From the NCBI RefSeq assembly GCF_000003815.2, contig NC_049983.1, positions 13,956,240 through 14,020,239 on the forward strand: a stretch of 64,000 bases of DNA, given 5' to 3'. Origin of the DNA: Branchiostoma floridae. Its lineage: Eukaryota; Chordata; Leptocardii; Amphioxiformes; Branchiostomatidae. Shown in pieces: positions 4,463 to 59,198 of this stretch (its first letter is position 1; every line of letters begins with the position of its first letter). A model generated the notes under the pieces. That model saw only the letters and a program-made list of their open reading frames with translations, was not told where the DNA came from and did not search any database. The position numbers were made by a program, and so were the translations under genes.

Positions 4463-4640
4463 CAGGGCTCGAAATACTTTTTTTCTGCATACCTGCACTG
4501 GTGCAGGTAACATTGAAAATTACCTGCACCAGACAAATTTTACCTGCACCATTCTGAATTTAGGAAGTATGGATCATACTAAAATTGTTCAGGAAACATT
4601 GCTATTTTTTCTGTGGGAGGCTGTGTGAGGAGGTTTATGC
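4463..4640 (+). mobile_element. Truncated CAGGGCTCGAAA-type element
   Basis: Begins with the intact CAGGGCTCGAAATAC terminus and continues with TGCAGGT repeats. It then follows, in reverse orientation, the right half of the 6964-7291 element (shared GGATCATACTAAAATTG), but no matching far terminus is seen. It is probably a one-ended relic; the right limit is approximate. Confidence 0.5.
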
Positions 4641-41663: not shown

Positions 41664-42066
41664 GTTGGCGAGGTATATTCAAAGTTGAAAACTCATATCT
41701 TGTGAAGAAAACAGTTTTGAAAACGGTTTTCAGATTACAAATTCTTACCAAACGATATTTTTGATGATACAATTTACAAAGTTTCACCTACTATAACACA
41801 CTTTAGCCACGACTAACCCTAACCCTAACCTTAACCCTAACCTAACCCTAACCCTAACCCCAACCCTAACCCCAACCCCAACCCCAACCCCAACCCCAAC
41901 CCCAACCCTAACCCTAACCCTAACCCCAACCCCAACCCTAACCCTAACCCTAACCTCAACCCTAACCCTAACCCTAACCTTTTTGCATGGTCAGTTTGGC
42001 GGCGCTTGAACCCTCATATCTCGAGAAGAAAACACAAGGCTTGAAAACGGTTTTCAGATTACAACT
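41664..42066. repeat. Telomere-like array flanked by direct repeats
   Basis: 41813-41980 is a degenerate (CCCTAA)n array with many CCCCAA variants. Flanking it in direct orientation are related segments (about 41664-41742 and 41996-42066) that share CTCATATCT and GAAAACGGTTTTCAGATTAC. The array is interstitial, because genes continue on both sides. Confidence 0.8.
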
Positions 42067-42560: not shown

Positions 42561-45500
42561 ATGGCACCCATGGAACACAGACATCGCCCCGGTCCGCTGA
42601 AACAGGACAACAAATCTCACAAAACCGGGCGTCACCGCACCAAGGGGCAGATAGACAAGGAGTATAAAGGTAAAAATAATTTCCCTAAGTGTCTATTAGT
42701 CTAATATCTTTCACAAGATAGCGTTTGTTGGAGTGTAGGAGGTGTTGCTGCAAGTGCGGGCACGTGGATGTGGGAGGGGGGCATGTCTAGCCAAGCAAAA
42801 ATATAGTTATCCATCAAATCATCTAATATCATGGCACCCAATTATAAATTCTCGTGGGGAACCGTAACTTGTACAATTGAAGAGTAGACATCTAAGAGTA
42901 CAATACATTATGGATTTCTCGTGTGGTATGAAGAGAGCAAATCATACCTTATGAAATTTTAACGTTATAAATAACGTTATCAGCCCCACCTTCACACTTT
43001 TTTGTTAGTAAAAGAAATCAATAAACGTTGAGGGTAACCTCATAAGATTGGCTCTCTTTGAGCTTGATTAGAAGCACTGCAGTGTGTTGTTGATCCCCAG
43101 TATATGTATACTGTAAATGCAGAAACTTTCGTGGTGGTTTAATGTTCGCGGTTTTTCGCTGCGAACTTAAAACCACTTAACAGTTACTGCGAAATTAAAA
43201 CCACTGCAAACGTTTTTCCATGGCAGTAAGAGACTACAGTGCATGGTGCTTCCGCGAGCCTACAAGCGCAGCAAAAAGTTCTTTTTCCCACTTCCGCGAA
43301 ATTAAATCCCCACGAACTTAAATGCATTTACAGTATACAGTATCCTCTCCCTCCCTCTCTACACAAACGTAAAGGGCCACCACATCAAAACAAAACAAAA
43401 AGCGACCACCTCGTCTTTAACCAAAGTAACCATGACCCAAATCCGCGTCAGAGCCTCCAGCCAAATGAAGTTGACACGTATGTGGAAGAAGAAGATACGA
43501 GCGATTGTGATGATGTCACAGTGATAGCAGTAGGCAAAAAGCAGGCGTTTGGCAAAATATTGATTTACATATTAACCAGTAATTTCATCTGCTAATATAA
43601 AATATCAATTTTTAATCCAATATTTTCTGCATTTTTATTACGAAGTACCCAGCATTTGGGAATGAGTATGAACACGGATACTATCACCCAACTAGTGTGA
43701 TTGTGTGGCACAAGGGCAGTTGGATAATGCCCTATGCACCATTCCGAAATAACTTCCATATACATGATACCAGTCATTTTTAATGACACTAATCATATGT
43801 CAGTCTAGCTGTATACATCTTCTATAAGTATAACCAGGAAATGCAATTACTACTTAATGCTGACTTTTCTGTACTTGCAGGTCGTGTACCAGTAAAGGCA
43901 GGGACAAAAAGAGTGAAACGGGAGAAGACCAAGGCAGACAAGAGACATCATGTGAGTTTCAGTACCTGAAATCAACTTACTAGTACATCAATAGAACAGT
44001 TATTTTGGTGTAGCTACTGTGGCACATAGTACAAATGGGGGTTTGCATGCCACTTTTCTACAAGGTAAAGCAAGCTATTTTGATTTCTCGGAGTTCGTAT
44101 GGAAAGCCGTCTTATTCATATAATTCCTACTGCAGTGAGTAAGTGACCAATTTTTTTTTGGCCTTCTTTTAATTTAGTATAATACTAAGTAATGTAGGGC
44201 CTTCTGAATTCAGCATGTTGTCATCAGGACCTCCTCTGCAGAATTGCCACGTAATATTGTATATTCACCCCTCTGCAAAGGTTGTATCATATTCATATTT
44301 CTATCACAAGTTGTAACCAATAAAGAATCTCTGCATGACATACTAGTAATATCCAGCATGTGGAGAGTTAGCAGAAATTTTGTTATTGTTTACTGTTTTT
44401 GATGCATTGTTTTGTGCTTTATTTTTCCTTACCCATTGCAGGCAATGCAAAAGCGTCAGAAAAGTAGGGAAGAGGTATTCATGCAGAAAAGAACTCTGGG
44501 AGGAGCCACAGGGCCACCACATACTGTGGTAAGTGTATACCACTATGAAACAAGGTATGCTCATGAAAAATAGCTATTTTGACCATTAGGGTACACCAAT
44601 TTAATTTGTTGGTTCCCAGTTTCGCATTCAGTGGAAACGGGGTGTAAGTTCATTCACAAGAGAAATGAATGTTTTGAACAGTTTGCAAGGCTGTAATTTG
44701 AGTTTTCTGTCTATCCATCCATCCAGGTGATTGTCCCCCTGTGTGATGATGTGAGTTCTGAGGAGGCGTTAACAGAGCTGCTGGGGTGTGATGACACAGC
44801 AGTGGTGTACACAACACAAGACAACAAGATTGTCAACATGTCCGTACCACGACATAAACACAGATTCACCTTCCTCACTCCCCCCAGGAACAACATTGGA
44901 GCAATACTGGATGCTGCTAAGGTTGGATTTCAATTCAAGCTGAACTCTTTGTGCTTAGCCTGAGTACAGTTTTTTGAAAAATATGCAGATAATATTAGCA
45001 TTATTTCCTTTGTAAAGATATAAAGATGTTGGTCTTCCATGATACCATATGGAGATGTTTTTATGATGAAACGCAATAAATTCAGAAAAAAAAGAGGAAA
45101 TGGTGATTTTACAACAACAGCTGTCACTAACTCTTCTTTGCTGCTTATCACATGTCCAATACATTTCAGTGCCAGTATTGCCTCACTAGTTGAAAAGTTA
45201 ATCTTTAGCGCAATGAAGTAACCGTGAAGATAGACTTACACATGACAGAGAGTTCACACAGAGCATTGCCAGAGAGCTGGGTATTGAAAACTTATCTATT
45301 AGGAAGACAACCAGGCTTGGAAGCATAAGCCCAGGCAAAAATCGTCTACTACTGGTTACATTGTATGATACATCAGATAGATACCATCTGTTAAAGGAAG
45401 CCAAGCTCCTGAACCACAGTGAACAATATTCCAACATCTTCATAGCACCTGACTTGTCACGCAAAGAAAGAGAAACAAGTCGGAGACAGCGGGAAGAACG

Positions 45501-48500
45501 ACGTCAGAGTAAAACCAACCACATAGGGGGTAACAACACGCATCTTATGTGACAACGTGAAGAGGTTGGGCTGAATATCACACATGACGACAAACAAGAT
45601 AACACACATGATGGCAATAGTGATAATACACATGATGACATAGGAAATAACGCACATGGCGGGGGACAACCGTGGAAAAGTAAAGCAGGTCCATTAAAAG
45701 TGCTGTACACCAACACAGACCAATTCCCAAACAAGAGGGAGGAACTCAGGTTCATGGTGGCCAGCGATCCAGTGGACTTGATCGCCCTGACCGAGGTTAT
45801 CCCCAAGGCACAGATAAATCCGTTAAAGATATGTACACTAGATATGGAAGGCTACGAGGCCTTTACAAACTTCAACCCGGATGAAAGAAACCTTGGGAAG
45901 AGTGGCACAAGGGGTATTGTCATTTTTGTAAAGAAGTCACTGAACTTGAGTGTACAGGAACTGGACTTTAGTGCAGCCGGATTTCATGAGCAGTTATTTC
46001 TGAAATGTGAACTAGGCAACAAAGAATCACTCATTGTGGGGTGTATATATAGAAGCCCAACCTCTGATCCAACAGACAGTACGACCAGATTATGTGAACT
46101 TTTGTCAAATGTTTGTAAAGAGAAGGCTAAGCACATGGTAATAATGGGAGACTTTAATCTAAAGGAAATTGACTGGGAAGGGAGGACTACAGTTGATGGC
46201 GCACACCCCCATTGCCAGCATTTCCTGGATTGTCTTGATGACAATTTTCTAACCCAGCATGTTGAAGAACCCACCCGACACAGGGTCAACCAGACCCCAT
46301 CCGTACTTGACTTAATCATCACAAATGAACAGCATACAGTTGGGGAACTGCAGTACCTGCCAGGGCTAGGGAAAGGTGACCACTGCTGTCTGAACTTCGT
46401 CATAAACTGCAGTAGGGAGAAACCTCCTAGACCGGAGGCAAGGCGTAATTATAACAAGGGCAATTACCAGAAGGCCAAAGAGGACCTGGGTGGGATTGAC
46501 TGGGATACTGAGATAAGTCACATGGAGGTCTCTCAGGCATGGACAAGGTTCTGCGAACTACTCAATAAGGTGGTGGATGAGTGTATCCCATTGACTAGAG
46601 GAGTCCAAAGACCTAATAAGCTTTACTTGAACAAGCAAGCAATGGAAGTAAAAAACAAGAAAAGGAAGATGTGGTCAAAATGGAAAAGCTCTGGTAGTCT
46701 TGCAGACTTCAGAAGGTATGCAGCAGTAAGAAACTCACTTAGAAGTCTAACACGACAGCTGTGCAGTGAATACGAGCACAGGCTGGTGAGGGATCTTAAG
46801 GACAATCCCAAAAACTTCTGGAGGTACACGAAGTCCCGTCTCAGTACAAGGCCCAAAATAGGTAGTCTGGTCAAACCAGATGGTTCAATGGCACTGACAG
46901 ACTTAGACAAAGCGGAGGTCCTGAACAACTTCTTTGCTAGTGTATTCACGGACGAGAATACATCTAGCATACCCAGAGCTAACGCCAAAACAGTGACTTC
47001 AGTTCTTGACAATTTCGAGATAAGTAGGGAAACTGTAGAAAGGAAGTTATCAGAACTCAACCCAACAAAGTCAGCTGGACCAGACGGTCTTCACTCAAGA
47101 CTTCTGAAGGAACTCGCAAGTGAGCTGTCGTACCCAGTATCAGTTATTTTCAAGAAGTCGCTGGAGGCGGGATGCGTACCAGCCGACTGGAAGACAGCAC
47201 ATATAACTCCGATCCACAAGAAGGGTAGCAGACAAGACCCAGGAAACTACAGACCTGTAAGCTTAACCTCCGTGGTTGTCAAGACACTTGAGTCCATCAT
47301 TAGAGATGCACTCGTCGACCATCTTATGGCAAACGAGTTATTTACAGACGCTCAACATGGGTTCGTACCCAAAAGATCTTGTACCACTCAGCTACTGGTA
47401 GTCATGAACGATTGGTCACAGTGTCTAGAGAGGGGGGAACCAGTGGACAGCATCTACTTAGACTTCAAAAAAGCTTTTGATTCAGTTCCCCACAAGAGGT
47501 TACTCGTCAAGCTGCACTCATATGGGATAAGGGGCCATACACTTAAGTGGATACAGGACTTTCTCAGCAACAGGAGGCAGAAAGTAGTTATCAATGGAGC
47601 GCACTCCTCCTGGCGTAACGTCAAGAGTGGAATCCCGCAGGGAAGTGTTCTGGGTCCTACGTTATTTGTTGTTTTTATAAACGACCTGCCGGAGGTTGTG
47701 ACCAGTGCAGTGAAGATCTTTGCTGACGATAGCAAAATCTACAGACCGATCCTATGCAAGGAGGATCAGGAAGCGCTTCAGCGTGACCTCCAAGCTGTGG
47801 AAAAGTGGTCGGAGGTGTGGCAACTCCCCTTCAACGCTGGGAAATGCAAAGTACTCCACTTGGGAAGAGGCAACCAAAGAGCAGAGTACAGACTGGGTGG
47901 GCTAATTCTGGAAGAAACCAAAGTCGAGAAAGACCTCGGGGTGTCTGTCGACGAGCAGTTAAAGTTCCACGTTAACACCACAGTCTCAGCGCAAAAGGCA
48001 AACCAAATATTAGGCTTGGTAAAAAGAACCTTCAGTAACTTGGATGAAGTAACAGTGCCCCTCCTCTACAAATCGATGGTTCGCCCCCATTTAGAGTATG
48101 CGAACGCTGTTTGGGGGCCGCATTTCAAAGTCGACCAGAACACTGTGGAAAAAGTACAACGTAGAGCAACAAGGCTGGTCCCAACACTCAAGTCCTTTCC
48201 GTATAGTGTTAGGCTGGAGAGTTTGAAGCTACCATCACTCCACTATAGAAGAGCCAGAGGGGATATGATACAAGTCTTTAAGTTCCTCACGGGAAGGGAG
48301 AGGGTTAGTGCACAGAGTTTCTTCACCGAGAGTCAACATCAATCAACTAGAGGGCATCGCTTCAAACTTACGGTGCCACTGGCAAAGTCCTTGGTACGTC
48401 GCCAGTCGTTTGCGGTTCGAGTAGTACAAAATTGGAACTCGCTGCCGGCTGAGGTCGTAGAGGCAGAGTCTGTTAACGCGTTTAAAACGAGGTTGGACTT

Positions 48501-51500
48501 ATGTTGGAGTAAGAAGAGATACCACGATCGTCAGGAGGGTGACTACACAGGCGCAGCCTACTTCACCTAGACATCATCAAGGTATCATCAAGGTAGCTGT
48601 TTGGCTACCAGTTTTCCATGCGTTATAGGGTTAGGCAGCAAGGAGAAGCTTAGATATACCTTTATAGAGGAAAATGTTTCTATACATGTTCTAAAGAAAA
48701 AGCGAGACAGGTAAGATATTTAGAGATGATAAGTTTCTCTCAAACTAAACAACGAAACTAAATATGTCTTCTCATCCCAAGAGGACAGTCTGAGACTAAT
48801 AAGACATTTCTGTTTTGTTGCCCACAGGCTGCTGATACCCTGTTGTTACTTCTCTCCCCGACCCGAGCAACTGATGAGTTAGGGGAGCACTGTCTGACCT
48901 GCCTGTTTGCACAAGGACTCCCTACACCTGTCTTAGTCACACGGGTCTGTTTGTAGCCTCTTTAAAAAAAGCATAAAAGCACAGTCACATTCGTCATAGG
49001 CTTTTCGAGCAGGCTGTGACAGAACAGTCCAACAAGGATCTATAACAGCTTTTCCTAACAATACATCTAAATGTTGTTTGACATATGCACAGTGTCCAAG
49101 AATGCATACATATACTATAGTACCCTCAGTTTTTTTAAGAATGATGACCCCAATTCATTATAGTTTGCTTAACATTTGTCATACGATACCATTTAATGCT
49201 GTACTTAGGACACTTTTAGAACTCTGTAATGTAAGGCAGTACCATAAGATACCAAAGGATAACATTGTGTGATATTGCAACTTAGGTATTTTCTTACCAT
49301 TGCGATAGATATAGAGAAGTTTTGTTTACATACTTGTGTGTTACTCCACAGGGAATTAATAACTTGCCTGTGAAGAAGAGAAATGATGCTAAGAGAAGTG
49401 TTAACAAGGCCATGGAGAGAAGATTTCCTGACGAAAAAGTTCACACACTAGATTCTCAACAGGTAAGGTAACGAAGAAATGAAGGAAAAAGCAAATCAAA
49501 TCAAGATTTTACACATATATTATTCAGAATGAGGCCAAATGTTATTTTCAGAAACACAGTCTTGAGGCTAATATAATGTAGTACATACAAAGATGTTGAA
49601 TTTGACTTTGTAGAATGGAAACAACCAGACCTGACTGGTGTACAGATAGGAGTTTTTCATCTGATCTTTCACAACTTTGGCTTGCCAGGATGCAGCTTTG
49701 GTACTGAGACATGTGACCAATCAGAAGCAGCGTAGACTGAAGCTGCGTGACCACCGGCCGTACCTGCTGGCTCAGAATGTCAGTTACCAAGAGGAAGAGG
49801 AGGTATGCTGGAGTGGAAAAAATAGTATATAACTACACAGTAATAATCAAGAAAAAGCTTCAGAATGTAGTGTAATTGCTATGGCTTCAGCTAACCATCT
49901 AGTTAAAAGTTGACAGTCCATTTGTAACAGATACTTAGGGGTGGCGCCCATCTCCATTTCTGTGACCTTGGGCCACGCATTTGTGCAAGCCACTACGGCA
50001 GGGGCCTAGTCCACTGGTAGTGATGTGTGTTTAACATACTCTTCCTCATTAGTGCTGAGTGCTAAGCAGACAAAGCAGCATGTACAATTTTTAAAGTCTT
50101 TGATGTGACTAGGCCGGGGATCAAACTCCATACCTACTAGTATCGAATACAAGACGAAACCCACTTGGCCATCCAATTAGAATCTGTTGAAATTATATAT
50201 ATTAGAGAACTAACAGAAGTCTTGCAAAAGATTCTATATGTATATGTTGACATACATGGTTACTTTAAAAAATAAAAATAATTTTTTTTATACATTTGTT
50301 CCCCTCTACAGTCCCCTACACATGGGACACTGAAGCTGACAGGCTACTTGAGAGGCTGCCCCCTCTCTGTGAATGGACTGGTCCATCTTCCTGGTTATGG
50401 TGACTTCCAGATGACCCAGATTGACCTTACCCCTGACCCTCACCCCTTGCAGAAACAGACAGACAAGAAGAAGCAAAAAGATGCCATGGTACATACAGAT
50501 AGGTGTTGGCTCAGATGTAGCAACCAGCGGTGTGTGTACATTATACACTGATGTATGAATAGACAACATTACTAGCCTGAGGGCCATCCTCCATAGTGAC
50601 TGCTGGCTCAATCCTTTACTTGGTAACAGGGCTCGAAGTTAACTATGTCCCGATGTCCCGGGGCCACTAAAATTTAGGCCGGGACAACTGAAAAATCTTT
50701 TTGGGACACTTTTGGGACAATAGGAAAATAATCAACGAATCAACATCGGACATTATGTCCGATCTCCCCGCGGCAGGCTTTTAGCTAGCAATGCGTACAG
50801 CCGTACAATATACGGCCTTCGCTAAAAAAATCGCAAAATGTACGCCCTGTTTTTTGGATATACGCCTTTGGTACGCCCTTATTTTCCCCCGGAAACTTCG
50901 CTCAAAGTTCAAAATTCGCCGATTCCGGACGCACCGAGCCGCCATTTTGGGTGATTCTACCTCAAGTCTCGCGCAATCTCGCACTCACTCACATCTCGCG
51001 AATTGCGAGAGTCGCACCCGATTGGCCATTTCGGCGTGACATAGCACGCCCAGGCGCCATTATTGGTGGAATATCTGATATCCCCGCTGTTTTTGCGGGA
51101 AAAATCACGCAGGAAAGCGTAAAAACTTTGATTTGTTTACGAAAACTCGTCGAATGCCTGAAGTCATTGGTGATAAGTACATGTATAGGATTGTTTTGGA
51201 GGTTTTTTTTGCTTGTTTGTCAGTGGAATGTGGGAAAAACAACAGCTAATGTGACGATGACATACTGGGGAGGGGGGCGGTGTCGGCATTGAATTCTTAG
51301 AAAATGTTGAACGGAGGTCGCGATTTTTTCACGGTAACTTGAGATAGTACTTTTGTTGCAGTCTTTATTTCTAAAATATTGATAAATGGATGTTGTTTGT
51401 TGAGAAAATTTCGCTTAATTTGCCCTTGGAACACATCTTTTCTGCTATATATTTTCAATGAATTAAATGTTTGTACACATTTTTCTGTACTGTGTAAAGT

Positions 51501-54500
51501 TAAAACAGTGATGTTACAGGCTACAAGTAACTTTTCAGTGCATTTATTTTCAGCTATGTTCTTAACAGGGTAGATACACAAAAGAAATATAAGATGTACC
51601 TGGCAGTCCTGGCTACACTTTCTCCTCTGTTGGTTTGCAGATTTTCTTGTAGACTTCTTTAGCTTGCTGTTGTTATATATGTAACAGTCAAGTTTCACCT
51701 TTAGGAGTAAGGTTAATTTACTCTCCCTGATTGTATGTATTAACTCATGAAACATTATATTGTAAGGAATCAGTGTTATATTACTTGAAAATTACCTCAT
51801 GTATTCTTTAAGCCATACCCACCTCAAATCAAGAACACATACCTCCCATTCTCAGGACAAAAGTAGTGTTGCAGCAAAGACAAAAATTTGGCTATATTCT
51901 ACTTCAAAATGCAGGAAATAGCATTTCAGAGGCTTTAAATTTCAAAATTTACCGGGGGAGGATACCCCCGGACCCCCCTACAATGCTCGTGCCTTCGGCG
52001 CTCGTTGCGCGGCTCCGCCGCTGAGTGCGGAGAGTACAACACATTACAGATGTACACCCTAAAAAAAATTCCTAGCTAAAAGCCTGCCTCGCGGTTGTCA
52101 GGTGTGCGTACTCTGACTTACAGTTGTTGTAATACATAATTTCTGAAAATAGGGTTGGGACAGTCCATCCTCACTTCGGGACAGTTGAAATTTATTTTTG
52201 GGACAATGCTGGGACAGTAGGGAAAAAAGGTAATTTTGAGGCCTGGGTAACCACAGAGTTAGCAAGCGAAAGGACTGACCCAGTGACCACTGCGGAGGAC
52301 GGTACTCAGGCTACAACATTACTGCTATCAGTACTGTAAGAGCCAGTTCTAGAGTGCTGCAGTTCGTCAACAAGATTAACTGTACAAATCACTGTGGAAT
52401 GGTTTAACTCATGGAAAAATGTTTTTTTCTTGCTTTGGTGTCTTTAGACAGCCATTTATAGAAAACACCTCTCTTTTATTGGTGACATGTTTATTTACAG
52501 TTACTTTAGTATTTTGTTTATGGTAAAACCAAATGTTTTCCATGCCTACTGTAGGACACAGAGTCCCCATCCTCCACATGTATGGAGCAGGATGTGCAGG
52601 TCCTCGCCAGGGCTGACCCCAGCAGACAGGAGTCCCTGCAGGCTGAGGTGGTGCCTGACCCCATGGAGGGGGAACAGACATGGCCCACAGAGGAGGAGAT
52701 CAGGGAAGCTGAGGGTACGGCTGCGCCATCTTCCATTTCTTTAGTATCTCTTTCCTTCTTTCTTTCTTTTCTCCTTTCCTTCTTTTTCTCTAGCTTTGTA
52801 CCATTCTTTCTTTCTTTTTCTTCCTTAGTATCAGTCCATCTTTTTTTACTTTCATCCTCTCATCCCATCCTTGTTTATCAGCTTCATGTTAACATTCCAC
52901 TCCACACCTGCCCATGATGTAACTTAGTTAGCTATGAGAGTCTGTGATTTCAGCTCTTGCCAGTATCATTACCTGAGGCAGCTTTCTGGTCTACATGAAT
53001 TTGATCTGCCTTGCACTTGTACATGAGATCCCACGTTCCCTGTAACTTGTTGACCTTGAACCCTACAGCTGCCTTGAAAGAGAAGATCAAGACGGTGAAG
53101 AAAGTTCCCAAGGGAACCTCAGACTACCAGGCTGCCTGGATTGTGGATAGTGAAGATGAGGGAGACAATGCAGAGGTAGGGTCATGTATGAAGGGACATC
53201 TCATCTTGTTATGATAACAGCATTTATGGTATCTCAAGTACAATTATCAGTCGATAAGATATCAAGTTTTTATTCGTGTTCACACAAACATTTTACACCT
53301 GCCCATGATGTAACTTAGTTAGCTATGAGAGTTTGTGATTTCAACTCTTGCCAGTATCATTTCCTGAGGCAGGTTTCAGGTCTACTTTGATCTATGTATT
53401 CCCATGCTTGTTAATGATCGCTTTATGATTCTTTCAGCTTGTATAGTTTCTGCTATCCTTTCTGTGGATATGATAGATGACTTGGAAAAGAAGTTTGAGA
53501 TTTGATTTTGATGAAAAATCTATACAGGAGGAGTCAGACTCAGACTCAGATGATGATGCCATGATGGAGGCTGTGGAAGAAGAGGAAGATGAAGAGGAGG
53601 CTGGGAGTATTGCTGCTACTGAGGACTATGAGGAGGTGAGTGAGGGAGAAAAGAAAATACAGGGATAGGGGGTAGGTAGGAAATCCAGGAATGATGGTAT
53701 CTTGTAGTCATAACATTTTTTGCATTCAATGCTGAGCTATCCAGAAACTACATGTAAAATCAAATCTGTAAAGTGACCACCTCTACCTATGGATACCCTG
53801 GCCAATGTGACAACTCTTTGGTTGCCCCATAGATAATTCTTCCCATTCACAGGAGCATTAAGAATCCACCTGCCCACATATATAGAGCAGATTTCATTGG
53901 TCTCTTGAGTGGTCTTCTTGGTCTGAGTTTTGACTGTCCATGATATTACTGCTTACATTATTTGATGCCTTAGAAAACTGTTGTAAATTTAAATGTGTTA
54001 AGGCGAATGCCATCAACAAATGCTGTCGATAGCAACAAAAACTGGTAGAAGCTCTGGATGTGTTAGTGTTTGTGATTCCCATTGACACATTTGACACCAT
54101 GACTGTAATGCTGTACCAGATGAGCCTGGCTGGAGAAGACAGAGATGCCAAGTACGATGCAGGGTTTGATGCTGAGGAGGAGGAGGAGATGCTGCAGAAG
54201 TACAAGGACGAGCGGCAGGACCAGATGTTCCCAGATGAGGTGGACACGCCCATGGACGCCTTAGCTAGGATCAGGTTCCAGAAGTAAGCTTTAAGAACTT
54301 AATGGGAAACATTTAGCCTAAATGTTTTTGTTTTATGATTACCACTTTATCACATTGTGTATTGTGTAAAGCTTCTGATGGCAATCATTCCATTTGTCTT
54401 AATATAAAGCCACCTGCCCATGATGTAACTTAGTTAGCTATGAGAGTCTGTGATTTCAGCTCTTGCCAGTATCATTCACTGAGGCAGGTTTTAGGTCTAC

Positions 54501-57500
54501 TATTATTTAGTATGACAGTTTTGTTACAGTCCACTCAGCCAATCTGTGCTCTTATCACATACAGTCATTTTGGTCGTTTTTGTTGCTGTATGAAGTTATT
54601 TCTCTGTTAAATATACATTGTTTGCAGTAGTATGCTTTAAGTGTAGATGCTTTTCTATTCGCCAATACAGAAACCATTTATCTTTCACTTTGATAGGTAC
54701 AGAGGCCTGAAGAGTTTCCGTACGTCCCCCTGGGACCCCAAGGAGAACCTTCCGCTAGACTTCGCCAGGATTTTCCAGTTTGAAAGCTTTAAGCGGACAG
54801 CCAAACGGGTCCTGACTGCAGACAGAGATGACACTGATGCTGCCATGGTAGGGCATGTCATATCATTTTAAATTGCGTCGATGTAGATTAGACATCCAGG
54901 TAATTATAAAAAGATACACCAAAAAGCAGTTACTCAAGCAGCTGGATTCCAAAATCATACCCAGTCGCTTGAGTAACTGCTTCTTGGTGCATTTCACGTT
55001 GTGAAATGTATGTTTTTTGTAGATGTAAAATTTTTGACCTGTTTGGATGTTTGGTTTTACAATCCTGTATTTTCCTCTGTCCGTCACAGCCTGGCTGGTA
55101 CATCACTATTCATGTAGCAAATGTGCCAAAGACATTCATAGGTGAGTCCAAACATTTCCGATGAAAATCTTGGATGATGGGAAGTTATTAAACTGCCTCA
55201 TACTGTGGTTTTATTACATGAAATAATGTGTATTTCTTAGAATTGGCTAAATGCAGCTTTATTACACAATTCATTACCATGTTGTACAGCATAGGGTTGT
55301 TTTAAAACCATGAAACTTAACTTTCCCCATTGTTGTTTTAGAGAGCTACAGCCCCTCCCACCCCCTGGTTGTGTATGGTCTACTGCAGCATGAACAGAAG
55401 GTGGGCACATGTTACAGGTTCTGCTTATATCGTTTATGTTAAATGACATTTGTTTTCTGATCGCACAGTTGTTTGGTTGAACTTACTGTTTAAAATCTCC
55501 TGCAGATGTCAGTGGTGCACTTCCTTGTCAAGAGGCATTCTGGGAACACAGAGCCAATCAAGTCTAAGGTAAGGCATGTTATTTATGTTTTAGCAAGGAA
55601 AGTACATTTCCATGTTTAATATATATGAATGAATGAATGAAGAAGACCTTTATTGTACAGTTTTGCCCAACCGAGCTAAGTATAGGTCACAACAAGTCAA
55701 GATATATACATATAAAAGTATCACAAATCTAGTCTAACACAAAAGTTCAGCTTCTTCTTGCTTCTTGGTAATGGTGAAAATGTAGGACTGTATGGGTTTA
55801 GCTATTGTTGGTTTGTCAAAACGCATGAGAAATATAAACTTGTCAGTTCTACTCATGTGTCTAAAATGAGGGAATCTACATAAAGTTGTAAATCGTAAGA
55901 AGGTTTTTAGCTGTTACAGATATTTCTCCTGTGCAATATCTAATGAAAGGCAACAACACAGGGTTTTGTTTATTTTGTCTTATTTCTGTCTTTATGTTCC
56001 CAATAGGAGAGAATGATCTTCCATGTGGGTTACCGCAGGTTTGCAGCCTGTCCTGTTTACTCCCAACACACTCTGGGCAACAAACACAAGGTATGAACTA
56101 TTCTCTTAGCTCATGTGTGCATGTTAACGATATGAACCTAGTGTGTAGAAACTACATTTAAGCTTAGAATGAAAGCTTGTCTGTGTTAGTATGTTTAAGA
56201 CTGAAAGTTTACTTAAGAAGTAATGTACAGTTGTTGTCTTTTTACCTCATTAAATTTGATAGTAATCTTATCTTACAGATCATTGAAAGCCAGTCAATGC
56301 TGTACAAAACCAAATCTACTTAAAGTCTTGTTGATGTTACACTCTGATAAAGGGAGACTTTCTGTGTATGTTTCAGTTTGAGCGTTTCCTGCGGAGTGAG
56401 GGGACGTCCGTTGCCACGGTGTACGCGCCCATCATGTTCCCTCCTGCCTCCGTCCTCATGTTTAAGGAGTACCCTGATGGTAGGAGACTTCGTCTGTATT
56501 CTGGATACAAATCATGACAGGGCTGTCTCCAGTTTTAGATTTCTGCCCTAATCATTGTTTGGGAGCCCATGTTGTTGATTTTCCTCATTAAACATGTCAA
56601 TTTAAGCTTATGAAAATAGATTTTCAACTGTTTCATGTTAGATTTTGAGGATGGATGGGATAATATTTTTTCTTTCCCAACAAGCAAATTTCCTGGAGAC
56701 AGCATTTGTACCTACCCCAGAAGTTTAGTTTTTTACAATTTGTAAAACAACTCTGGGTCAATGCCAGCTCTAAAGAGTATACTTTTTCGCCTCACATCTG
56801 TCCATTGCAAACTCCTGCCATAGCTTGTTTTGGCATAATTTGGTTTGGTTTAAATGTATTCTTTATCATCTTAAGATGATGGAATGGCCAATCCTTTGGT
56901 AAATCCCAGCTGAACAAAACTCTGACAAAGTATTGAATGCTGGCTAGAATCTTGTGACAACCCTAGCTGTGCAGTGTTGTAAAGCATTTCCGATAAAGCA
57001 ACACTCTTGTCCAAAGATAGTATATTGTACATGTATGTTGAAGTTGAAGTTCTAACACCCAGTGTTATGACATGTCCTGACCTGTTGAAGGTTCCCAGTC
57101 TCTGGTGGCGACAGGTTCCCTCCTGAGTGTTAACCCAGACCGTGTGGTCGCCAAGCGGATCGTACTGAGCGGCCATCCCTTCAAGATCAACAGGAGGCTG
57201 GCAGTGGTTAGATACATGTTCTTCAACAGAGGTAAGTTTCACAATCAACATCAAAACTACATGAAGTTTATCATCAACTTCCGTGCAGAGTTTGTGTGTT
57301 AGGCACTAGTAGTGTACTGTTTTAGATGGATGAAAGGTAATGGCAATTTTTTATTAAATGACAAGTCAATTATTTTTCTGCCATGATGACACAGTTAAAA
57401 GGAACAGGAAATTCAAACTGCACTTTAGTTTATGGGTAAAAGATTTTTTTCTTGAAGCTACTGGTACAAATGCTGTCACTTCTACTCTATATGGCACTCT

Positions 57501-58018
57501 TTCCTTTATGTCCTCTGTTTGTAAATGTCTGTACATGTTTCTTCTTCTGCTTCCCAGAGGATATCATGTGGTTTAAGCCAGTGGAGTTGAGGACCAAGTG
57601 GGGAAGAAGAGGGCATATCAAAGAGCCTATTGGTGAGTAACATTACAGATCTTATTTTATAATAGAGAGAACCCAACATGCTTAATGATAAGAGTAGGGG
57701 AGACATAGTCTGCATGGTTATAAACACAAGCCATGGCCAAGTACTAATGAAAAATGAACAAGCATCATGCTGTGTATCATGCTGAGTTCACCTACTGTAC
57801 CTTTTTCCTTGACTTTACTTTTGATCCCGTTTTTTCTAGGTACTCATGGGCACATGAAGTGCTTTTTTGACGGCCAGTTGAAGTCCCAGGACACTGTGCT
57901 GATGAACCTGTACAAACGTGTGTACCCCAAGTGGACCTATGACCCAGAGGTCAACATGCCTCCACCTGAGCAACCTCTGACCTCAGAGGTCACCAGTGTG
58001 GAGGAAGAAATGGGATAA
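42561..58018 (+). CDS. TSR1: TSR1 pre-rRNA-processing / ribosome maturation factor (808 aa)
   Basis: Twenty-one exons join in frame: 42561-42669, 43881-43951, 44442-44528, 44727-44921, 48828-48944, 49352-49462, 49689-49802, 50312-50488, 52555-52714, 53069-53175, 53528-53635, 54120-54283, 54697-54847, 55090-55141, 55342-55400, 55506-55568, 56007-56090, 56377-56479, 57091-57231, 57558-57632, 57840-58018. All junctions are GT/AG. Human TSR1 is 804 aa. Diagnostic stretches are [14 protein letters not shown] (N-terminus), [78 protein letters not shown] and THGHMK near the C-terminus. The order is a basic N-tail, a GTPase-like core, an AARP2CN domain (about 230-315), an acidic linker (about 410-475) and a RIBIOP_C/DUF663 region (about 490-790). 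TSR1 is a catalytically inactive GTPase relative of BMS1 that escorts pre-40S particles in nucleus and cytoplasm. Confidence 0.96.
43111..43333. mobile_element. CTGTAAATGCA MITE (TA target), copy 2
   Basis: Same family as 7778-7970. Perfect CTGTAAATGCA/TGCATTTACAG ends, TA on both sides (43109-43110, 43334-43335) and shared CCGCGAAATTAAAT blocks. Lies in TSR1 intron 1. Confidence 0.75.
45208..45552 (+). pseudogene. ORF1 fragment of the LINE
   Basis: Open without a start from about 45208 to the TGA at 45550. The sequence [15 protein letters not shown]...[16 protein letters not shown] resembles the C-terminal domain of non-LTR ORF1 proteins, which bind RNA. The N-terminal part is missing. The TGA is in the same reading frame as ORF2. 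Confidence 0.6.
45553..48570 (+). CDS. LINE ORF2: endonuclease and reverse transcriptase
   Basis: The frame is open from directly after the ORF1 stop to TAG at 48568-48570. 956 codons follow a GTG at 45700, and no upstream in-frame ATG is obvious. An AP-type endonuclease occupies the first 240 residues counted from 45700 (LTEVIP, CIYRSP, GDFN near 150, LDLIIT, GDHCCL). A reverse transcriptase spans about 490-745 ([44 protein letters not shown] near 672). A C-terminal region follows ([16 protein letters not shown]). No frameshift or stop interrupts it, so the copy is young or was recently active. The protein would make cDNA by target-primed reverse transcription. The family is CR1/jockey-like by motif style; exact clade not determined. 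Confidence 0.85.
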   Translation, partial: QREEVGLNITHDDKQDNTHDGNSDNTHDDIGNNAHGGGQPWKSKAGPLKVLYTNTDQFPNKREELRFMVASDPVDLIALTEVIPKAQINPLKICTLDMEGYEAFTNFNPDERNLGKSGTRGIVIFVKKSLNLSVQELDFSAAGFHEQLFLKCELGNKESLIVGCIYRSPTSDPTDSTTRLCELLSNVCKEKAKHMVIMGDFNLKEIDWEGRTTVDGAHPHCQHFLDCLDDNFLTQHVEEPTRHRVNQTPSVLDLIITNEQHTVGELQYLPGLGKGDHCCLNFVINCSREKPPRPEARRNYNKGNYQKAKEDLGGIDWDTEISHMEVSQAWTRFCELLNKVVDECIPLTRGVQRPNKLYLNKQAMEVKNKKRKMWSKWKSSGSLADFRRYAAVRNSLRSLTRQLCSEYEHRLVRDLKDNPKNFWRYTKSRLSTRPKIGSLVKPDGSMALTDLDKAEVLNNFFASVFTDENTSSIPRANAKTVTSVLDNFEISRETVERKLSELNPTKSAGPDGLHSRLLKELASELSYPVSVIFKKSLEAGCVPADWKTAHITPIHKKGSRQDPGNYRPVSLTSVVVKTLESIIRDALVDHLMANELFTDAQHGFVPKRSCTTQLLVVMNDWSQCLERGEPVDSIYLDFKKAFDSVPHKRLLVKLHSYGIRGHTLKWIQDFLSNRRQKVVINGAHSSWRNVKSGIPQGSVLGPTLFVVFINDLPEVVTSAVKIFADDSKIYRPILCKEDQEALQRDLQAVEKWSEVWQLPFNAGKCKVLHLGRGNQRAEYRLGGLILEETKVEKDLGVSVDEQLKFHVNTTVSAQKANQILGLVKRTFSNLDEVTVPLLYKSMVRPHLEYANAVWGPHFKVDQNTVEKVQRRATRLVPTLKSFPYSVRLESLKLPSLHYRRARGDMIQVFKFLTGRERVSAQSFFTESQHQSTRGHRFKLTVPLAKSLVRRQSFAVRVVQNWNSLPAEVVEAESVNAFKTRLDLCWSKKRYHDRQEGDYTGAAYFT
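48598..48827. other. Rest of TSR1 intron 4 after the LINE
   Basis: Short non-coding remainder up to exon 5; nothing recognised. Confidence 0.5.
50627..52245. mobile_element. 1.6-kb CAGGGCTCGAA-type TIR element in TSR1 intron 8
   Basis: Left end CAGGGCTCGAAGTTAAC and right end (complement CAGGCCTCAAAATTACC) are inverted repeats with GGGACA-rich subterminal blocks. GGTAA flanks directly on both sides (50622-50626, 52246-52250), a 5-bp target-site duplication. A deeper inverted pair (GCAGGCTTTTAGCTAG at about 50773 and its complement at about 52072) lies inside. It contains GCCGCCATTTTGG at 50938. The open frames inside (up to 152 aa) lack transposase motifs, so it appears non-autonomous. Confidence 0.72.
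52738..52835. repeat. Polypyrimidine (CTTT)n tract
   Basis: A nearly pure C/T run on the plus strand starting 24 bp after the exon 9 donor of TSR1. Simple repeat; could adopt triplex structure. Confidence 0.7.
52906..52983 (+). ncRNA. Box C/D snoRNA candidate, TSR1 intron 9
   Basis: A terminal stem CTGCC (52908-52912)/GGCAG (52977-52981) encloses a C box-like ATGATGT (52914-52920) and a D box CTGA (52973-52976) directly next to the 3' stem. A degenerate C' box (GTGATTT) lies between. Box order, spacing and length (about 74-78 nt) fit a C/D snoRNA that guides 2'-O-methylation. Two near-identical copies lie in introns 10 and 12. Human TSR1 introns host SNORD91A/B, which supports the position. 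The rRNA target is not resolved by eye. Confidence 0.72.
53297..53374 (+). ncRNA. Box C/D snoRNA candidate, TSR1 intron 10
   Basis: Second copy. A 7-bp terminal stem ACCTGCC (53297-53303)/GGCAGGT (53368-53374), C box-like ATGATGT, D box CTGA (53364-53367). The internal guide-like blocks (ACTTAGTTAGCTATGAGAG and CTCTTGCCAGTATCATT) are identical to copy 1. Upstream flanks are diverged. Confidence 0.75.
54412..54489 (+). ncRNA. Box C/D snoRNA candidate, TSR1 intron 12
   Basis: Third copy with stem ACCTGCC (54412-54418)/GGCAGGT (54483-54489), C box-like ATGATGT and D box CTGA (54479-54482). It differs from the others only in the few bases just before the D box. Confidence 0.75.
54915..54996. repeat. 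Hairpin repeat in TSR1 intron 13
   Basis: Arms CACCAAAAAGCAGTTACTC and its near complement ending CTTCTTGGTGCA enclose a loop of about 25 bases. Probably a fragment of a dispersed repeat. Confidence 0.5.
55620..55900 (-). repeat. Probable LINE 3'-end fragment, reverse orientation
   Basis: Starts with (GAAT)n followed by GAAGACCTTTATTGTAC, which on the minus strand reads as a repeat body ending in an (ATTC)n tail. Limits are approximate. Lies in TSR1 intron 16. Confidence 0.4.
56518..56706. mobile_element. Short TIR repeat in TSR1 intron 18
   Basis: Left CAGGGCTGTCTCCAG and right CTGGAGACAGC are inverts. The interior shares CATTGTTTGGGAGCCCATG with the copy at 24480. Non-coding. Confidence 0.5.
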
Positions 58019-58705: not shown

Positions 58706-59198
58706 TGTTGCCATGGATGCATGCTCCTGGTTGTGTGAGTTAAGAGTGTTACACTTGACAAAGTTAGTCAAGACTTTAAGGGGTTGGAAGGGGAGAAGGG
58801 TTGTACATATGGGTATATAGAGATAGGAATCAGGATAGGGGAGGATAAGTGATGAGGTTAGTTGACCAATGTTGTTAGAAATACAGTATCAGAATGCGAG
58901 GTAGTAGTGGAATCTTCATCATTACCAAGTACTGTAGGAAATGATGATCATGAACTGATAATTTTTCAGTGAGACTTGAATATATTAAGTCCCATATTTG
59001 GACAATTTTTAAAAATTTTTATTTTGTTAGTATATAATTTGGGAGTATTCAAAGGGGGGAGATGTTCGGTGGTTGTTCAAAATGGCGCGTAAGAGACGGT
59101 GATGGGCGAAGAGCTGGTTCTGGGACGTCCTGGTTCTCTCAGTTTGTTCGAGATCTGGGGTTCTCTCTCTAGTTCTCGCCAGATCTCGCAGTGGTCAT

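Follow-up and report, generated by a model that had tools for sequence, protein, structure and literature searches.

Three closely related box C/D snoRNA candidates in introns of the amphioxus TSR1 gene

A stretch of 64,000 nucleotides of Branchiostoma floridae DNA was analysed, and is referred to here as the window. TSR1 is present in it as a complete gene, on the + strand at 42561–58018, modelled as 21 exons separated by GT-AG introns and encoding a product of 808 amino acids. The exon ends of the model were picked by reading and the frame stays open throughout. Comparison of the product with the human TSR1 chain in the PDB gave an E-value of 1.5e-291 over residues 7–803, and the Pfam domains Tsr1_G-like, AARP2CN and RIBIOP_C were identified within it. 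Three introns of the model, intron 9 (52715–53068), intron 10 (53176–53527) and intron 12 (54284–54696), each carry one copy of a short element on the sense strand, named copies 1, 2 and 3 respectively, with 83, 151 and 205 nt between the copy and the 3' splice site. An initial annotation of the DNA had named TSR1 and these three introns as the host, and the gene model and protein match bear this out.

Several other features were observed in and around the gene. Intron 4 contains, at 45553–48570, an open frame of 1005 codons that resembles a non-LTR retrotransposon and has domains for endonuclease and reverse transcriptase. Intron 13 holds an almost perfect hairpin, about 90 nt long, at 54905–54996, which gave several weak Rfam miRNA and sRNA matches and is probably a short inverted-repeat element. 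CCCTAA-like, telomere-like repeats are found at 41812–41980, between TSR1 and an amylase-like gene that was named by reading.

Copy 1 occupies 52905–52985 and is closed by a terminal stem of 5 bp, formed between 52908–52912 and 52977–52981. The letters of box C (ATGATGT, 52914–52920), of the D guide region (CAGCTCTTGCCAGTATCATTAC, 52951–52972) and of box D (CTGA, 52973–52976) were read directly. The motifs ATGA (52934–52937) and GTGATTT (52944–52950) can be read as putative D' and C' boxes, both imperfect, where the D' box is placed by its kink-turn geometry with GTGATTT, and the putative D' guide, AACTTAGTTAGCT (52921–52933), is in turn placed from this D' box. Copy 2 lies at 53296–53376 with box C at 53305–53311 and box D at 53364–53367, and copy 3 at 54411–54491 with box C at 54420–54426 and box D at 54479–54482. 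Both are on the + strand with terminal stems of 7 bp, and their boxes, also read directly, are again ATGATGT and CTGA, so that all three copies have both boxes and the stem.

Alignment of the copies over 81 nt revealed only five variable columns (38, 49, 67, 68 and 78), which agrees with the earlier description of three near-identical copies with a terminal stem, a C box and a D box. The length of 74–78 nt given in that description was not reproduced, the shared block being 81–104 nt instead. A repeat search of the window gave a single family of three copies, whose reference copy is 90% and 92% identical to the other two over 99 nt. Immediately 5' of the D box the copies differ, with AC, TC and CA at columns 67 and 68, so a D duplex common to all of them should begin at the third base upstream.

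The geometry of the C and D boxes was read using the pairing rules of the kink-turn. The boxes fit this motif with an unpaired C, an A-U pair of the C box, tandem G-A pairs, a U-U pair and a G-C pair, set on the stem of 5–7 bp. The C box ends in T where A had been expected, as was remarked at the outset; the T is indeed present, but it is not unusual, since a C box ending in U is also found in 5 of 10 different C/D consensus sequences from Rfam (a sample already biased towards likeness), and the position is outside the kink-turn motif. At the internal boxes, the canonical C-G pair would be replaced by one between the A of D' and a U of C'. The predicted fold has a hairpin across the internal part instead. 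Within this hairpin columns 38 and 49 pair as C-G in copies 1 and 3 but as U-A in copy 2, where the predicted pair probability is 0.25 and a neighbouring register is preferred; in the others it is 0.87. Because the covariation is a single event and copy 2 favours the other register, it is suggestive only.

The frequency with which such an arrangement arises by chance was measured using a rule that requires a C box followed 50–94 nt later by a D box, closed by a terminal stem of 5 bp or more. Three candidates were counted in the TSR1 gene, compared to a mean of 0.037 and a maximum of 1 in 300 dinucleotide shuffles, and the + strand of the window contained three compared to a mean of 0.13 in 60 shuffles. 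The - strand of the window contained none by the same rule. A looser C-to-D distance rule gave one extra candidate at 58849, which is probably due to chance. Box C/D snoRNAs usually fold weakly, and predicted folding energy gives weak support to the snoRNA reading: z values of the 81-nt pieces were -0.75, -1.89 and -2.00, and +0.32, -1.53 and -1.01 when flanks were included.

No Rfam family reached its cut-off anywhere in the window. Single-copy scans of copies 2 and 3 at E-values up to 10 gave sub-threshold matches mostly to C/D families: 20 of 21 for copy 2, including 19 on the + strand, and 12 of 13 for copy 3, including 11 on the + strand. As these matches are nearly all C/D and none is at cut-off, the class is clear and the family is not. 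SNORD70, SNORD72, SNORD47 and SNORD24, which are among the best sub-threshold matches of copy 2, resemble the copies in their C and D boxes, terminal stem, length and U-ending C box; they differ in their guide blocks, and the scores were 19.5–23.7 bits compared to cut-offs of 41–50. Copy 3 shares the C box AUGAUGU and an AACUUAG-like first guide with Caenorhabditis ceN103, but the match has low significance at 18.3 bits against a cut-off of 55. The boxes, the stem, the excess over shuffles and a host gene that serves ribosome biogenesis support the assignment of the three intronic sense elements to box C/D, as far as sequence can indicate it, and they are very probably the snoRNAs that the initial annotation took them for. 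No title announcing a lancelet snoRNA catalogue was found in the portion of the amphioxus and snoRNA literature covered, which included parts of PMC2728532 and PMC4284660.

When copy 1 was used as a DNA query against the whole 513-Mb genome, three places were found, all of them in TSR1, with identities of 100, 96 and 95% (over 81 nt, 96% for copy 3 and 95% for copy 2). Counts from this search are lower bounds, as diverged copies can be missed. Many copies outside TSR1 had been named beforehand as evidence against the snoRNA reading, and with this bound on the count the three places leave that reading standing. The 15-nt core of the D guide occurred at four places in the genome, namely the three copies and one place on C4 (L040) with no C box, D box or Rfam match, while the reversed control of the core occurred at one. 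A search of the window for an 18-nt core, allowing 3 mismatches, gave no further copies, and the next match to a covariance model reached only 11.6 bits (E 1.6).

Introns 9, 10 and 12 share one block of 90–104 nt with 91–94.5% identity by BLAST. Its abrupt 5' edge coincides with the 5' terminal stem, and on the other side it runs to a shared GGTCTAC just 3' of the stem; the remainder of the three introns gave no mutual match at BLAST E-values up to 1. The simplest account of this pattern would be an intragenic duplication followed by decay of all but the snoRNA; gene conversion among the three introns would give a similar picture. Intragenic duplication is described as the main route of expansion for chicken snoRNAs in the part of PMC2653536 consulted.

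Targets were searched for by pairing both guide regions in the +5 register and comparing the best duplexes with those of shuffled guides. The amphioxus targets were taken from the same genome, the 18S from positions 431–2246 of locus L024 and a 3' fragment of 28S from positions 4610–5092 of L031 with flanks. Of the genome patterns for 28S, one matched nothing and another matched one fragment. The amphioxus 28S covered by the pairing test is one 3' piece, most of the molecule being absent. Human 18S, 5.8S, 28S core and snRNAs were used as working sequences, leaving out the 28S expansion segments. The working 18S measured 1869 nt and agreed with 18 of 18 methylated bases in the portion of the PMC5597630 list consulted, and both working rRNAs matched real eukaryote-like contigs in conserved parts.

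The genome searches also gave information on the rDNA itself. The 18S pattern was found at nine places (L017–L025), four of them without mismatch and five that have the same single base change. Three places of the changed type were read and matched the working human 18S at 86.6–86.7% and 79.3% (two pieces), versus about 88%, and two that were read further downstream had no 28S. Since they are more diverged and two are without a downstream 28S, the places read are probably rDNA pseudogenes. Thirteen contigs filed under bacterial genomes (L001–L013) carry eukaryote-like rDNA, which is assembly contamination.

None of the rRNA duplexes stood clearly above chance. On amphioxus 18S the best duplexes of the three D guides were equalled by 360, 466 and 373 of 500 shuffles, and those of seven D' placements by 138–220 of 500, the value of 138 belonging to the box ATGA. 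On the amphioxus 28S 3' fragment the corresponding values were 388, 298 and 452 of 500 for the D guides and 242–296 of 500 for three D' placements. The working human 18S, 5.8S and 28S core gave 246, 300 and 170 of 300 for the D guides and 96–188 of 300 for the D' placements, and the working human snRNAs gave 256, 277 and 260 of 300 for the D guides. Seven D' placements on copy 1 were equalled by 14–154 of 300 shuffles on the snRNAs. The lowest two values, 14 and 31 of 300, came from U4 duplexes at AGTC and TCTG, motifs that are not D'-like, and these duplexes were set aside on account of the number of placements tried.

The power of the pairing test was measured with 10 control guides from Rfam consensus sequences, which were equalled by 0, 0 and 2 of 300 shuffles in three cases, by 43 in one, and by at least 123 and up to 256 in the other six. 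A single control guide on amphioxus 18S was equalled by 1 of 300 shuffles. With three of ten controls at 0–2 of 300 and most of the amphioxus 28S absent, missed targets are to be expected. Complementarity to rRNA at the +5 position had been proposed as a check on the snoRNA reading; nothing significant emerged, which leans against that reading, at the low power of the test and with the 28S represented by its 3' piece.

We consider it very likely that these elements are box C/D snoRNA genes encoded in introns, paralogous to one another through duplication inside TSR1. Of this explanation, what has been observed is the anatomy of the sequences, their copy number, their host and their excess over shuffled controls; expression, processing, snoRNP assembly and guide function are predicted. 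Duplication within the gene would have produced the three paralogues, and exonucleases that trim back each debranched intron would most likely set the snoRNA free. It would be protected from trimming by a snoRNP of 15.5K, NOP56, NOP58 and fibrillarin built on the C/D kink-turn, and the two conserved internal blocks would be candidate guides for 2'-O-methylation. The copies look like a new orphan box C/D snoRNA family, located in this genome at three sites within TSR1.

The sharp 5' boundary of the shared block could also be produced by a mobile or dispersed repeat whose C/D-like ends are accidental. This is highly improbable and was rejected on the genome search, which, with its counts as lower bounds, found no place outside TSR1, and the boxes and stem are kept in every copy. 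A closer comparison is with vertebrates, because the introns of human TSR1 carry SNORD91A and SNORD91B, which we take to be the snoRNAs also named HBII-296. The human pair guide Gm4618 of 28S (old number 4588) according to the part of PMC5597630 consulted, and in the part of PMC2653536 consulted the chicken relatives of HBII-296a/b/c occupy TSR1 introns 8 and 11 and have a 14-nt 5' antisense element. The amphioxus copies resemble them in box C/D class, in host and in the occupation of more than one intron, and could be SNORD91 orthologues that have remained in this host from the chordate ancestor onwards while their sequence drifted, with the 28S target kept or changed. They differ in that no SNORD91 model match was seen and the guide for 28S Gm4618 is missing. 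SNORD91 was absent from the 21 and 13 sub-threshold Rfam matches of copies 2 and 3, with the model assumed to be present in the library. The amphioxus 28S piece keeps the stretch that holds the SNORD91 target, yet the longest match of its antisense in the TSR1 gene was a single one of 10 nt at 52527, outside the copies, and inside them there was none of 9 nt. A pattern of C box plus 12-nt SNORD91 guide matched 19 places in the genome compared to 8 for the reversed control, and none of the 8 of these 19 loci that were inspected had a D box with a stem of more than 3 bp. Orthology by sequence found no support in the Rfam lists or in the guides, and drifted orthologues are unlikely. The TSR1 gene analysed here, read at the level of its sequence, is without sign of SNORD91. 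The initial annotation had proposed, as one of two explanations, a chordate-conserved TSR1-SNORD91 unit expanded to three in this lineage, which these results do not support; its alternative, a different snoRNA recruited to the same host, fits best given the absence of the SNORD91 guide and Rfam match.

The best lead to a target for the orphan family is a pairing over 9 bp between the D' element and GCTAACTAG in amphioxus 18S, comprising eight Watson-Crick pairs and one G-U pair without interruption. With ATGA as the D' box, the target at D'+5 would be the A equal to human A1401. The duplex is not significant, being only the second-best of its register (8.3 compared to 8.6), and the best itself was reached by 138 of the 500 shuffled guides. 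The human 18S methylation list in PMC5597630 includes 1383, 1391 and 1442, and 1401 is absent from the part covered. Methylation of this A by the D' element is accordingly a doubtful proposal, which we hold to be improbable. The lack of a significant rRNA or snRNA target is consistent with orphan snoRNAs acting on some other RNA, or on the splicing or stability of the host transcript. Against this stand the absent 28S and the few controls recovered by the pairing test, and the guides paired with TSR1 itself no better than shuffles (97 and 92 of 100), on which basis autoregulation through such pairing was set aside; action on another RNA or on the host is possible but somewhat unlikely. Slightly more credit, still tentative, is given to a broader reading in which the family is an orphan of the lancelet lineage, unrelated to SNORD91, that guides either a modification absent from vertebrates, possibly at the 18S A1401 position, or a target other than rRNA.

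If the copies are such a lancelet-lineage orphan, TSR1 would have kept its role as a snoRNA host while the passenger was replaced. Such a change of snoRNA in the TSR1 of an invertebrate chordate would mean that a host gene can persist after its passenger has gone, and the set of three copies provides a clean case for asking which parts of a snoRNA are constrained.
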